Source of the DNA: Balneolaceae bacterium
Lineage (GTDB): Bacteria; Bacteroidota; Rhodothermia; Balneolales; Balneolaceae
Direction of reading: 5' to 3'
Assembly: GCA_007132385.1 (NCBI GenBank)
Contig: SLOU01000086.1
Coordinates: forward strand, 1 to 44,583
Length of the DNA stretch: 44,583 nt
In this document: positions 29,514-38,761 of the stretch, one piece after another
Numbering within the stretch: the stretch's first letter is position 1
How the letters are laid out: every line of letters starts with the position of its first letter
Made by a program: the position numbers and the translations under genes
The notes under the pieces: model-generated
What the model saw: only the letters and a program-made list of their open reading frames with translations
Told to the model about the DNA's origin: nothing
Database searches by the model: none

Positions 29514-29546
29514 AAAAAGGGGTGTTTGCTGCACCTCTTTTTTTTT
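29514..29546 (+). terminator. Rho-independent terminator between the STAS gene and purA
   Basis: aaaaaggggtg-tttgctg-cacctcttttttttt; 11-bp stem with one G-U, followed by a T tract. Ends 7 nt before the purA ATG. Confidence 0.8.
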
Positions 29547-29553
29547 GAAAATT

Positions 29554-30834
29554 ATGGCAGTACGAATAATAGTTGGAGCCCAATGGGGAGATGAAGGTAA
29601 AGGCAAAGTTGTAGACCTGCTCAGTAAATCGGCTGATTTCGTTGTTCGCTATCAGGGAGGAGCCAATGCAGGCCACACGCTTAAATTTGACGATCGCGAA
29701 GTTGTTTTGCACCTGATCCCGTCCGGTATTTTCAATGGTGATGCGCGATGTGTAATTGCAAATGGTGTTGTAGTGGATCCTAAAGCACTTCTTGACGAAA
29801 TCGGTCATGTTGAACAGATGGGTGTCGACCTCTCGTCCAAACTTTCGATCAGTGAATCGGCCCATGTAATTCTTCCCTATCACCGTATTCTCGACCAGGT
29901 CAAAGAAAAAAGCCGTGGTGAAAATGCCATTGGCACTACCGGGCGCGGAATCGGGCCGGCATATGTGAGTAAAGTGTCGCGGGTGGGTATCCGCATGAGC
30001 GACCTGCTCACCCCCGGTTTACTGAAAGAGAAGATTGAACACAATCTGGCTGATATCAATAAGGCCCTGATACACATTTACAACGAACCGGTTCTGGATG
30101 CGGCCGAAATGTTCGAATCGCTGAAACCATCTGTCGAACGGATCAAACCCTTTATCTGCAATACTGCCCGGTTGCTTCACGATGCAGTAGATAATGAGAA
30201 AGAAATACTGCTTGAAGGCGCCCAGGGAAGCCTGCTCGATCTCGATCACGGAACTTATCCCTATGTCACATCTTCTTCGCCTACAGCGGGTGGAGCGTGC
30301 ACCGGAAGCGGGATCCCACCCACTGCCGTTACCCATGTGATGGGCATTACCAAAGCTTACTGCACACGTGTCGGGAACGGGCCATTTCCGAGCGAACTTC
30401 TTGATAGTACCGGAGAAGAGCTACGCAAGCAGGGAATGGAATTTGGTGCCACAACCGGCCGGCCGCGCCGTTGCGGCTGGCTCGATTTGGTTGCACTGCA
30501 GTATGCTGTGCGTTTAAACGGTTTGAACGAACTCACACTTACAAAGCTGGACGTACTCGACGCTTTTGATACCATAAAAATCTGTACTGAATATGATATT
30601 GAAGGCCAGCGCACCGATATTTTCCCTCTCAGCGAAAAAAAACTGTGCAAGGTCAATCCGGTATATAAAACCATGGAGGGATGGAAAGGCAGCACAACAC
30701 GAAATATTGCCAAACTGTCCAGCCTGCCTGAAAATGCACGTAAGTATATTGGTTATGTTGAAGATTTTATCGGGGTACCACTGCGAATCATATCCACAGG
30801 CCCCAAACGAAGCGAGACGATTGTTCGTTATTGA
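29554..30834 (+). CDS. purA: Adenylosuccinate synthetase
   Basis: GAQWGDEGKGKVVDLL, GGANAGHTL, GTTGRGIGPAYVSKVSRVGIRM, LEGAQGSLLDLDHGTYPYVTSSSP. Confidence 0.98.
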   Translation: MAVRIIVGAQWGDEGKGKVVDLLSKSADFVVRYQGGANAGHTLKFDDREVVLHLIPSGIFNGDARCVIANGVVVDPKALLDEIGHVEQMGVDLSSKLSISESAHVILPYHRILDQVKEKSRGENAIGTTGRGIGPAYVSKVSRVGIRMSDLLTPGLLKEKIEHNLADINKALIHIYNEPVLDAAEMFESLKPSVERIKPFICNTARLLHDAVDNEKEILLEGAQGSLLDLDHGTYPYVTSSSPTAGGACTGSGIPPTAVTHVMGITKAYCTRVGNGPFPSELLDSTGEELRKQGMEFGATTGRPRRCGWLDLVALQYAVRLNGLNELTLTKLDVLDAFDTIKICTEYDIEGQRTDIFPLSEKKLCKVNPVYKTMEGWKGSTTRNIAKLSSLPENARKYIGYVEDFIGVPLRIISTGPKRSETIVRY

Positions 30835-30850
30835 CATAACCTGAATACGT

Positions 30851-31975
30851 ATGGAAGCTATCGACCGGTTTACAGTTCATTACCTGATTACTGCCGGATC
30901 TGCAGCAGAAGCTGAACACCGTGCACACGATATCTGCATCGAACAGACGGCTGAAATGCCGTATGAAACGATTCCGATGCACATCAGGGAAAGTATTACA
31001 GGTCAGATTATCTCACAAAAGCAAACAGAGTCAAACCTTTTTGAAACCTCCATATCTTTCCCGGTATCAGCTGCCGGAAATGAAATTACGCAGTTTCTGA
31101 ATGTAATATTCGGTAACATTTCGCTTAAGCCCGGTATCCGTATCCACGGAACCGGCTGGAATTCTCTTACACATATTTTTCACGGCCCTGTCAACGGAAT
31201 CGATGGAATCCGGTCACAGATCAATATTGAAGGACGCCCTCTCAGTTGTTCGGCTCTGAAACCTATGGGGCTGAACAGTGATGAACTTGCAAATATCTGC
31301 TACAGGATGGCCCTTGGCGGAATCGATATCATTAAGGATGATCACGGGCTGGCGAATCAGGTAAAGGCGCCATTTTCCGAACGCATACTGGCCTGCCTGA
31401 ATGCGGTCAAACGGGCTGAAGACCAGACCGGAAAGCGAACGCTTTATGTTCCCAATATTACCGGCGACGGTTTTGAAACCTGGCGCCGATATGAAATTGC
31501 CCGGGAACTGGGAGCCGGCGGTGTATTGGTTTCTCCGCAGCTATGCGGTTTGAGCGTGCTCAGTGATCTGACAAAAAACGAAGATCAGATTCCGGTTATA
31601 GCACACCCGGCATTTTCAGGCTCCTTTATTACGAATCCTGAACACGGGTTTACACCTGAATTTTACTATGGCCATCTTTGGCGGGCACTTGGAGCAGATG
31701 CCGTCATCTACCCGAATGCCGGCGGACGTTTCTCATTTTCGGAAGAGCTTTGTCTCTATTTGAACCGGGCATTGCGGCAAAACTCCCTCCCTTTTCAACC
31801 GGCATTTCCGGTTCCGGCGGGAGGAATTCAGCTCGAAAGTGTTAGCCAATGGATGAAAAAATACGGTGGAGACACGATATTTCTCATCGGAAGCAGCCTT
31901 TATCGTCATCCCGATGGACTCGAAGCAGCTTGCAGGAACTTTCAGCAAAAAATTGAATCGTATGAGCCACAATAA
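30851..31975 (+). CDS. RuBisCO-like protein (form IV RuBisCO large-chain homologue)
   Basis: HGPVNGIDGIRSQINIEGRPLSCSALKPMGLNSDELANICYRMALGGIDIIKDDHGLANQ aligns with the RuBisCO GRPL.GxTxKPKLGL...GGLDFTKDDENVNSQ core. AHPAFSGSF, PNAGGRF, PAGGIQ and GSSLYRHPDG match later loops. Several catalytic residues are substituted. Confidence 0.93.
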   Translation: MEAIDRFTVHYLITAGSAAEAEHRAHDICIEQTAEMPYETIPMHIRESITGQIISQKQTESNLFETSISFPVSAAGNEITQFLNVIFGNISLKPGIRIHGTGWNSLTHIFHGPVNGIDGIRSQINIEGRPLSCSALKPMGLNSDELANICYRMALGGIDIIKDDHGLANQVKAPFSERILACLNAVKRAEDQTGKRTLYVPNITGDGFETWRRYEIARELGAGGVLVSPQLCGLSVLSDLTKNEDQIPVIAHPAFSGSFITNPEHGFTPEFYYGHLWRALGADAVIYPNAGGRFSFSEELCLYLNRALRQNSLPFQPAFPVPAGGIQLESVSQWMKKYGGDTIFLIGSSLYRHPDGLEAACRNFQQKIESYEPQ

Positions 31976-32438
31976 AAACAAATCCGGGCGATCAAAAGTG
32001 ATCAAAAGCAAAAACTATAGCTGGGAGGGTATTGATAAACACCAGTACAAGACGAAGGGAACCGGATTTAAGGACATCCATCGATATTCATTACTCACGG
32101 ACGACTTTCCGGAGTTGAATGCTCATACCCGTTATTTTGAAATTCAAGCGGGTGGATATTCCTCTCTCGAATTTCACCGACATCCGCATTCGGTGATCGT
32201 CCTCCGTGGATCCGGATCGGTGATATTGGAAAATGAGATTCATGAAATTGGTTTGCATGATCTTGTTTTTATTTCTCCGGGGACTATCCATCAGTTTCAA
32301 GCCGATAAAAATTCACCGCTGGGTTTTCTCTGTATCGTTGATCGATACCGGGATAAACCGGTGCTTCCGGATGAGAATTTAATAGAACAGCGGATTAAAG
32401 ATCCGAGAATCAAAGTGAAAATTAAAAAGAAGTCATAG
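31962..32438 (+). CDS. Cupin-domain protein, candidate partner of the RLP
   Basis: Cupin motifs GGYSSLEFHRHPHSVIVLRGSG and DLVFISPGTIHQF, then GFLCIVDRYRDKPVLP. ATG 31962 overlaps the RLP stop by 14 nt, implying translational coupling. Confidence 0.88.
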   Translation: MSHNKNKSGRSKVIKSKNYSWEGIDKHQYKTKGTGFKDIHRYSLLTDDFPELNAHTRYFEIQAGGYSSLEFHRHPHSVIVLRGSGSVILENEIHEIGLHDLVFISPGTIHQFQADKNSPLGFLCIVDRYRDKPVLPDENLIEQRIKDPRIKVKIKKKS

Positions 32439-32525: not shown

Positions 32526-32597
32526 GCGGGAATAGCTCAGTGGTAGAGCATCACCTTGCCAAGGTGAGGGTCGCCGGTTCGAATCCGGTTTCCCGCT
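32526..32597 (+). tRNA. tRNA-Gly (GCC anticodon), CCA not encoded
   Basis: GCGGGAA/TTCCCGC acceptor stem, TCACC-TTGCCAA-GGTGA anticodon arm, GGTTCGAATCC T arm; the sequence after the discriminator is CCG, not CCA. Confidence 0.97.
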
Positions 32598-32605
32598 CCG
32601 TTCTG

Positions 32606-33075: not shown

Positions 33076-34569
33076 ATGAAACTATCTGACCTTGTCTTCG
33101 ATGTGATTGGGATCTCCAGGGATGTACCTCTTGATGAGCACAAAATGGCTCAGAATTTGAAAGTGACGTTCCAGCCGCCCGTTGATCAATCGGAACGACT
33201 TGAGAGATTCGTTCAGAATTTCAAAAAAACACTGATTGAAATCGGCACAGAGATCATACCATATGAAGATGCGCTCATTCCCGGTAAAGAACGCGTGAAG
33301 TCCGGTATCGTAATCGTACAACAGGGAAAAGGAAAAGATGACGAACTTGCCATCCGGTCGGTTTCCAGTTTATATGAGAATCCGGTTGTCGGAATTTTTA
33401 ATGAACCACCTCCTATCCCGGACAATCCCACCCTTCAGGAGACACTGGACAGTATTATCGGAGTTCTCGCCTGGAATCTGACGCACGTACCTATTTTTGT
33501 GGAAGAGGACCGATGGACGGTCTGCACCATGAACGGCGCCGTTATTGAGTGTGGCGACTGGAGACACCCGAAAAACGACATTTTGAACTCCCTGGTTCCC
33601 AAACTTTCCGCACAGGTCATTCCACCCAAACGGGACGAAATTGTATATCGTGAAAAAGTTCTTGACCCGATCAAGCAGGGATACGGCGAATTCATCGACG
33701 ATTTCATGAACGCTGCCAACATTTGGCGAGATAACGGGTTGATGCTGGCGCATACATCAATTGAAGACCTGGAATACAGAAACCGCTATTACAAGCGGAT
33801 TGTTTCACGTTATCTCGATCACAGGACCGGAATGAGTTACGGTTTTATGGTGCGTCAGCTTCCGACGGATCCTGATCCTGCTTTTGAACTTGATCAGGCT
33901 CCGGAACCACTCAAAAATGCCAATTGGGAAGACCTGACGATCAACAAATACAAGGGCAAGGATTATTCGAAAGTTGTACTGTACGACAAAGAATGGATAG
34001 TTCATATTCCGGACGTATGGGTCCTTTCCACACGCTCAGGCTGCAATAAAACAAACCTGAACCCTGAGAAGGATATACTACGGCTCGGTCTGCACGAGGG
34101 TGACATCACCATCGATACACCGAAAAAAATAAGTGCAGCCAAATGCCGACCATCCTATGATACTTATGCTATACTTGCCCATGCGGTCGGAAATGCAATC
34201 ATTGCAGGTGTGCTTAAAAGCATCCGGCCTGACGCTACATTTCCGGTATCACTCAAAGAAAACGGACTTTCGGTATGCCACTGGCACGGATATCCCGACA
34301 AAAGCTATCCATTGCCGGGATACGTCATTCATGGCGAAGAGAATCCGCCAGTATCATGCTCTACCCCACAGTCGGCAGCCTATGCTCTTACAGGTAAACT
34401 GAAAGCGATCGAAAAAAACCGGACTACCAATCACGATTATCGAGGTGATGTTCACATAGAACCGCACCACGGTACCAACATTGCCGGCTCTATGACCCTC
34501 ACCGAAACCGCCGGATGGGTGGATGAAATGCACAAACATGCAATGACGGAGTCTACGGCTGCAAGCTGA
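33076..34569 (+). CDS. Conserved-looking hypothetical protein, 497 aa, no recognised family
   Basis: Long ORF with typical codon use and no signal peptide; Cys/His-rich segments CHWHGYPD and HIEPHHGTN. Confidence 0.75.
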   Translation: MKLSDLVFDVIGISRDVPLDEHKMAQNLKVTFQPPVDQSERLERFVQNFKKTLIEIGTEIIPYEDALIPGKERVKSGIVIVQQGKGKDDELAIRSVSSLYENPVVGIFNEPPPIPDNPTLQETLDSIIGVLAWNLTHVPIFVEEDRWTVCTMNGAVIECGDWRHPKNDILNSLVPKLSAQVIPPKRDEIVYREKVLDPIKQGYGEFIDDFMNAANIWRDNGLMLAHTSIEDLEYRNRYYKRIVSRYLDHRTGMSYGFMVRQLPTDPDPAFELDQAPEPLKNANWEDLTINKYKGKDYSKVVLYDKEWIVHIPDVWVLSTRSGCNKTNLNPEKDILRLGLHEGDITIDTPKKISAAKCRPSYDTYAILAHAVGNAIIAGVLKSIRPDATFPVSLKENGLSVCHWHGYPDKSYPLPGYVIHGEENPPVSCSTPQSAAYALTGKLKAIEKNRTTNHDYRGDVHIEPHHGTNIAGSMTLTETAGWVDEMHKHAMTESTAAS

Positions 34570-37681: not shown

Positions 37682-38761
37682 TTAAAACGGCAGTGGAACA
37701 TATGAACTGGAGGGAAAAACCCCGGCCATTGCAAGAATTGCAATGAGCATTGTTCCAAGTACAATCGCTGCCGCAGGAGGATCAAAATGTGTATCAGCAT
37801 GAGCAAAGAAAACCCGCTGAACCCATTCGCCAAACAGTGCAGAAATAATACCAAAGGCAGCTCCGATCAACAGCATCGCACCCATGGCCTGGTCCATGAA
37901 TTCTCCTCCGGTCGCAGCTACCATCGCTGCACTTGCGATCAGTGATATATGGTGCGTGACTGGAATTTTTTCTACACCCAGATTCAGAAATAAAAGGGAA
38001 GCCGCACTGATTCCAAACGGCAGAAACACACTTCCCGTTTGATAGGTGATAAAAGCAGCCAGCATCCCAACAACAAAACCGAGCATTGTTACATCCCCCC
38101 ATTTATACTGATGGGGCAGCCACGGTTCAACAAGTAACCGGGAGGCGGGTTCATCTTTCTTTACACTTTTAGTGTCTCTGTTTTCACTTGCTTCCCTTCG
38201 GATTCCCTGCTCAAACGGTTTCATATTCAGCAAACCACGCTCCGCATCTCCGATCATTTTATAGCCAAATACAATTCGGTGCACAACAGCAGAAAGAACT
38301 ACTGCAAATGCAATTGGATCCCACGGAAGGGAAAATGCAGTAGAAAGGGTGGCGATCCAGTACCCGAGGATTCCGAAGAGCCCGCCAACAAACAGTACGT
38401 CCGGTTTCGGTCCCTGGGCGTAAGCGATATTCTTTGCCTCATGGTAGGGAAAGCCTGTACTCATATACCCTTTGTGAGCAGCAAATGCCGATGCGGCAGC
38501 CCCGGCAGCAAAACTGATATGAGGGCCAAACACCGGGCCAAATGCAAGTTGTCCTGTAATCGAATCGGACATCAGTTCTTCATTTCCTGAATCCAGTATC
38601 CCCAAAAAATCGCTGCTTATAATGGCAGCTGTCTCCCCGAACATTACCAAAAACCCGGTAAAAATAAATGCCGGCAGCGCCCCGATTGCGGTTCCAAATG
38701 CTCCCCCCGCAAAAGCAGCCAAAAGCATACCTAACCACCAAAGTTCCGATAGTTCCGCCAT
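37682..38761 (-). CDS. Multi-pass integral membrane protein of unknown function
   Basis: Many hydrophobic glycine-rich TM segments and a cytosolic-type charged linker (IRREASENRDTKSVKKDEPASR); no confident family. Confidence 0.75.
   Translation of the reverse strand: MAELSELWWLGMLLAAFAGGAFGTAIGALPAFIFTGFLVMFGETAAIISSDFLGILDSGNEELMSDSITGQLAFGPVFGPHISFAAGAAASAFAAHKGYMSTGFPYHEAKNIAYAQGPKPDVLFVGGLFGILGYWIATLSTAFSLPWDPIAFAVVLSAVVHRIVFGYKMIGDAERGLLNMKPFEQGIRREASENRDTKSVKKDEPASRLLVEPWLPHQYKWGDVTMLGFVVGMLAAFITYQTGSVFLPFGISAASLLFLNLGVEKIPVTHHISLIASAAMVAATGGEFMDQAMGAMLLIGAAFGIISALFGEWVQRVFFAHADTHFDPPAAAIVLGTMLIAILAMAGVFPSSSYVPLPF

Follow-up and report, generated by a model that had tools for sequence, protein, structure and literature searches.

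A Balneolaceae genome carries a gene for a form IV RuBisCO-like protein (RLP) that runs into a gene for a small cupin, which raises the question of whether the two proteins act together and, if so, on which substrate. We propose, with a probability of roughly 0.87, that these two enzymes make up the core of the methylthioadenosine (MTA)-isoprenoid shunt. What we observed directly is the gene content, the orthology to enzymes of proven function, the conservation of the active sites and the co-occurrence of the genes; from these we infer the reactions themselves. The original prediction had offered the pair as a candidate module of this shunt, and the sequence evidence, namely the RLP tree, the matches of the cupin, and the presence of mtnA, dxs and an O-acetylhomoserine (OAH) sulfhydrylase gene in the host, speaks in its favor.

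The gene pair and its surroundings

In the window (the whole stretch of 44,583 nucleotides analysed here), the RLP is encoded on the forward strand at positions 30851 to 31975, by an open reading frame (ORF) of 374 amino acids that begins with ATG, has no internal stop, and is matched by the Pfam RuBisCO_large model (E 7e-29). The single-domain cupin lies on the same strand at 31962 to 32438, from its ATG to the end of its stop codon, is 158 amino acids long, and is matched by Pfam Cupin_2 (E 1e-8). The two genes overlap by 14 nt (31962 to 31975, forward strand), exactly as first described, and both these coordinates and the overlaps in homologous loci make translational coupling probable, so that the two proteins would be co-translated. 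Upstream, and only 16 nt from the RLP gene, is purA for adenylosuccinate synthetase (29545 to 30834, forward strand; Pfam PF00709, E 9e-181); clustering of neighboring genes identified purA and the RLP gene as a conserved pair in Balneolales loci. The two are probably co-transcribed, and purA is only a candidate for a role in the pathway. A tRNA-Gly gene follows the pair at 32526 to 32599, and a scan for promoters and terminators returned sites no commoner than in shuffled sequence. We noticed no mtnP, mtnA or mtnK in the list of ORFs surrounding the pair, in agreement with the earlier account, and mtnA lies elsewhere in the genome. Two further ORFs in the window, of 497 and 359 amino acids (33076 to 34569 and 37682 to 38761), match no Pfam or NCBIfam model and have no relative in the other loci fetched. 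The guess that the DNA came from a Balneolota-like source agrees with the nearest named loci.

The arrangement is shared by relatives of the host, for which we used a set of 59 genomes, the host bin being counted among them. The cupin gene adjoins the RLP gene in 25 of 30 RLP loci of these relatives, which answers the suggested check on conservation of the pair across genomes; three more loci have it on the same contig at a distance of 5–12 kb, and in the last two the contig end truncates the RLP gene. Loss of the cupin in genomes G003, G021 and G017 was considered and rejected, as the gene was found 5–12 kb off. Among the 32 named loci that hold both genes, the genes overlap in 19 and are at most 30 nt apart in nine others. 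Because the pairing is conserved across relatives' loci, the overlap seen here is more than chance.

Family assignment of the RLP and the cupin

The RLP is of the DeepYkr type, and Pfam, tree, residues and fold together led us to propose that it is a 5-methylthioribulose-1-P 1,3-isomerase. Its best match in the PDB is 3qfw of Rhodopseudomonas palustris (E 4e-66), followed by MtnW enolases (E 9e-50), and the same structure is nearest by fold to the AlphaFold model of the protein (pLDDT 94; TM 0.88/0.93). The entry names the species only; from species and family we take it to be R. palustris RLP1 (RPA2169), the other RLP of this organism, RLP2, having a separate entry (2qyg). Identity between our RLP and RLP1 is only about 36–38%. 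The active-site pattern of RLP1 is nonetheless present in full (Asn89, Lys137, Lys162, Asp164 and His165).

Alternatively, the RLP could be an enolase of the MtnW type in oxygen-dependent methionine salvage, with a cupin that is acireductone dioxygenase-like or unrelated. MtnW is, in fact, the nearest named NCBIfam model, but the RLP scores 220 bits against a cut-off of 409, and Asn89 and His165 stand where MtnW has its catalytic lysine (Lys98) and the metal-site glutamate, respectively. Furthermore, MtnB was not found over its cut-off in any of the 59 relatives, and the cupin matches methylsulfurylases, all of which makes this alternative extremely improbable. Identity as MtnW or as OiaX was in both cases ruled out by family cut-off (for OiaX, 87 bits against 700), active-site residues and tree position: the whole clade of the RLP has Asn in place of the MtnW lysine and His in place of RuBisCO E204, as does R. 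palustris RLP1, and OiaX-like proteins carry Asn and Glu at these two positions.

Maximum-likelihood trees place the RLP inside a Balneolales group (support 100/99), and a branch with support of 98/92 parts the query, R. palustris RLP1, the RLPs of Rhodothermia, Gemmatimonadota and Ectothiorhodospiraceae, and the MtnW outgroup from RLPs linked to a transketolase. RLPs on the cupin side had an SH-aLRT value of 99 in a quick tree, and in a careful tree rooted on MtnW their monophyly was weak (77/60). The phylogeny proposed as a check thus gave no clustering with MtnW or OiaX, and grouped the protein on the side of RLP1. Active-site residues by themselves do not tell RLPs with a cupin partner from those with a transketolase partner, so the assignment depends on the tree, on the cupin and on the co-occurrence of the two genes. 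Given how close it lies in sequence, structure and tree to RLPs of proven function, the protein is predicted to be an RLP of the MTA-isoprenoid shunt. R. palustris-like shunt RLPs were also seen in other Rhodothermia families (loci L148, L149 and L150), with an adjacent cupin in two of these loci and none adjacent in the third (family f6). In a related family (f3; loci L026, L028 and L029), the RLPs have extra sequence inserted, either in their N-terminal half or past query residue ~260.

For the cupin, the best PDB matches are 3ibm of Halorhodospira, 3kgz of R. palustris and 3jzv, which is R. rubrum Rru_A2000 (E 7e-32 to 4e-24), and the next cupin follows at E 4e-7, so that 17 orders of magnitude separate it from these three. 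The same three structures top the fold search. Here too the entry 3kgz names the species only, and species and family point to RPA2170. Residues E70, H72, H74, H76, H110, C124, Y29 and R57 of the cupin do not vary across the methylsulfurylase-type cupins of the alignment, and the protein is an ortholog-like match to Rru_A2000 and RPA2170 with the metal-site histidines and the Cys kept. Methylsulfurylases of R. rubrum and R. palustris are therefore its nearest solved relatives, rather than the sugar or regulatory cupins that had been named as the other outcome, and Pfam, PDB matches, residues and fold agree with a proposed role as 1-methylthioxylulose-5-P methylsulfurylase.

Pathway context in the host and its relatives

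In the proposed scheme, MTA would be converted to MTR-1-P, which MtnA, encoded elsewhere in the genome, would turn into 5-methylthioribulose-1-P. The RLP would then catalyze a 1,3-isomerization to 1-methylthioxylulose-5-P, and the metal-dependent cupin would pass the methylthio group on to a low-molecular-weight thiol, releasing 1-deoxyxylulose-5-P (DXP), which would enter the MEP pathway. The mixed disulfide would give up methanethiol, which could return to methionine through OAH sulfhydrylase. In the host genome, a 71% complete bin of 287 contigs, we found mtnA (G000:C13; 449 bits against a cut-off of 279), dxs, the marker of entry into the MEP pathway (G000:C47), and OAH sulfhydrylase (G000:C181). 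The search for pathway genes suggested at the outset was thus borne out for mtnA and dxs, and not for a canonical mtnP. Because MtnN, the MTA/SAH nucleosidase, is absent from 58 of the 59 relatives, host included, and no match to MtnB exceeds its cut-off, the searches recovered no nucleosidase route and no universal salvage pathway.

Co-occurrence links the genes further. Across the 59 genomes, 31 have both RLP and cupin, two the RLP only, one the cupin only and 25 neither (p 3e-13); in the two RLP-only genomes a contig end truncates the RLP. All 33 genomes with the RLP have mtnA, compared to 10 of 26 without it (p 5e-8). With one genome per genus of the host's own family, the associations of the RLP with the cupin and with mtnA have p 9e-6 and 7e-3, respectively. 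A gamma-glutamyltransferase gene stands directly before mtnA in the host (L155:5111-7997), an arrangement conserved in the family. This gene was considered as support for a route through a glutathione adduct and rejected, since within the family it occurs in 7 of the 11 genomes that have the RLP and in 6 of the 8 that lack it, and so does not track the RLP.

The original prediction had named the absence of any MTA phosphorylase from the genome as an outcome that would speak against it, and for this first step its reading needs qualifying. The host bin, at 71% completeness, yielded no canonical enzyme and only PNP-I paralogues, and canonical MtnP was not over its cut-off in any of the 59 relatives. 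PNP-like matches number one or two per genome among the relatives, and the two paralogues of the host fit PNP-I models specific for inosine/guanosine. A PNP-I of altered specificity, deamination followed by PNP, or a methylthioribose kinase may lead from MTA to MTR-1-P; a search for an MTA deaminase returned many amidohydrolase matches and, judged by motif alone, no clear MtaD. At L153:2019-3609, a gene for a YtnP-like protein of the metallo-beta-lactamase fold overlaps a PNP-I gene, and the same pair occurs in genomes G008, G029 and G049.

The lack of a canonical MtnP in the relatives is also what could be expected if the RLP acted mainly on 5-deoxyribulose-1-P from 5'-deoxyadenosine salvage, as the same 1,3-isomerization of this deoxy analogue would, on chemical grounds, yield DXP directly, leaving the cupin to another methylthio or sugar substrate. 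This possibility would leave unexplained, however, the near-perfect co-occurrence with a methylsulfurylase-type cupin, in which every conserved methylsulfurylase residue is kept, and we regard it as quite improbable compared to the MTA-isoprenoid shunt.

The nature of the thiol that would accept the methylthio group also deserves attention. In R. rubrum, glutathione is the thiol of the shunt in vivo (PMC4334135), and it has been anticipated that the thiol would differ from one organism to another (PMC6302742). Glutathione synthetase (GshB) was not over its cut-off in any of the 59 relatives, and BshC, for the synthesis of bacillithiol, whose occurrence in Bacteroidetes was already known (PMC6282198), is present in 58 of 59, being missing only from the incomplete host bin. 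For these two reasons, we believe with moderate confidence that the thiol used by the cupin is probably bacillithiol rather than glutathione, even though imported glutathione or other synthetases may be alternative sources of glutathione in this lineage. A glutathione-free shunt as a whole, in which bacillithiol or N-methyl-bacillithiol accepts the methylthio group and MTA cleavage falls to an enzyme other than MtnP, such as a PNP-I paralogue acting alone or after deamination of MTA, is a tentative proposal to which we would give slightly less than even odds.

Comparison with known systems and with transketolase-linked RLPs

Enzymes of the shunt have been proven in two purple bacteria, namely the cupins of both R. 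rubrum and R. palustris and the RLP1 of the latter; for RLP1 and the R. palustris cupin the proof is in vivo, and the isomerase activity of RLP1 was shown in vitro as well (PMC5893883). Homologous pairs of Halorhodospira, Nitrococcus and Meiothermus had already been listed, as predictions from sequence (PMC4958253), and bacterial genomes have been surveyed for both enzymes (PMC10663253). Because pairs beyond purple bacteria were thus on record, we consider the Balneolales pair an instance of a known pathway, and assign its chemistry to the MTA-isoprenoid shunt with high confidence on comparative grounds. Like R. rubrum (RLP Rru_A1998 and cupin Rru_A2000), the Balneolaceae genome has the same two families, with the metal-site histidines and Cys of the cupin, as well as mtnA, OAH sulfhydrylase and dxs. 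Unlike in R. rubrum, the two genes overlap directly and lie downstream of purA, no canonical MtnP was found in the host, and the lineage differs in its GshB and BshC content. R. palustris has the nearest solved RLP and one of the nearest solved cupins, under adjacent gene numbers (RPA2169 and RPA2170), but differs in having the DHAP shunt and a canonical mtnP, in addition to the low identity of the RLPs. The pairs of Halorhodospira, Nitrococcus and Meiothermus are the same gene pair in other phyla, the Halorhodospira cupin (3ibm) being the best sequence match. With MtnW, the 2,3-diketo-5-methylthiopentyl-1-P enolase, the RLP shares the form IV RuBisCO fold and a link to methionine salvage, and differs from it in catalytic residues, model score and tree position, MtnW being the outgroup.

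Outside this clade, close RLPs follow a transketolase split into N and C halves in Clostridia, Chloroflexota, Acidobacteriota, Nitrospirota, Chromatiaceae, a Lokiarchaeota bin and Rhizobiales plasmids. Several of these loci include mtnA, and the plasmid operons also mtnK, in the order mtnK-mtnA-tktN-tktC-RLP; operons with split transketolase and mtnA were seen upstream of the RLP in L081, L084, L085 and L087, and at L129:1690-7110, L130:1688-7119 and L136:686-6110. These RLPs have the same active site as ours. A transketolase acting on 1-methylthioxylulose-5-P would yield glyceraldehyde-3-P and a methylthio-C2 unit, and these split-transketolase operons are a candidate for an alternative methylthioribose salvage route in which transketolase replaces the cupin. 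We found no paper on the mtnK-mtnA-split-transketolase-RLP operons in the open full-text literature.

Because these close RLPs (42–46% identity) pair with a split transketolase where ours has the cupin, the partners of an RLP can change, and in Balneolaceae as well the RLP could act on the same substrate, with another enzyme taking its product and the cupin serving a different step. However, sequence, residues and fold all make the cupin ortholog-like to two methylsulfurylases of proven function, and the RLP is on the side of the proven shunt enzymes in the tree, so that we judge such an arrangement very improbable and retain the cupin as the second enzyme of the shunt.

The product of these RLPs, then, probably has at least two genomic fates, one clade having a cupin and the other a split transketolase. 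Cultured Fodinibius species make it possible to test whether the cupin depends, as predicted, on the local thiol. Balneolales, which are common in saline and soda-lake habitats, join the bacteria that probably make methanethiol and an isoprenoid precursor from MTA without oxygen.
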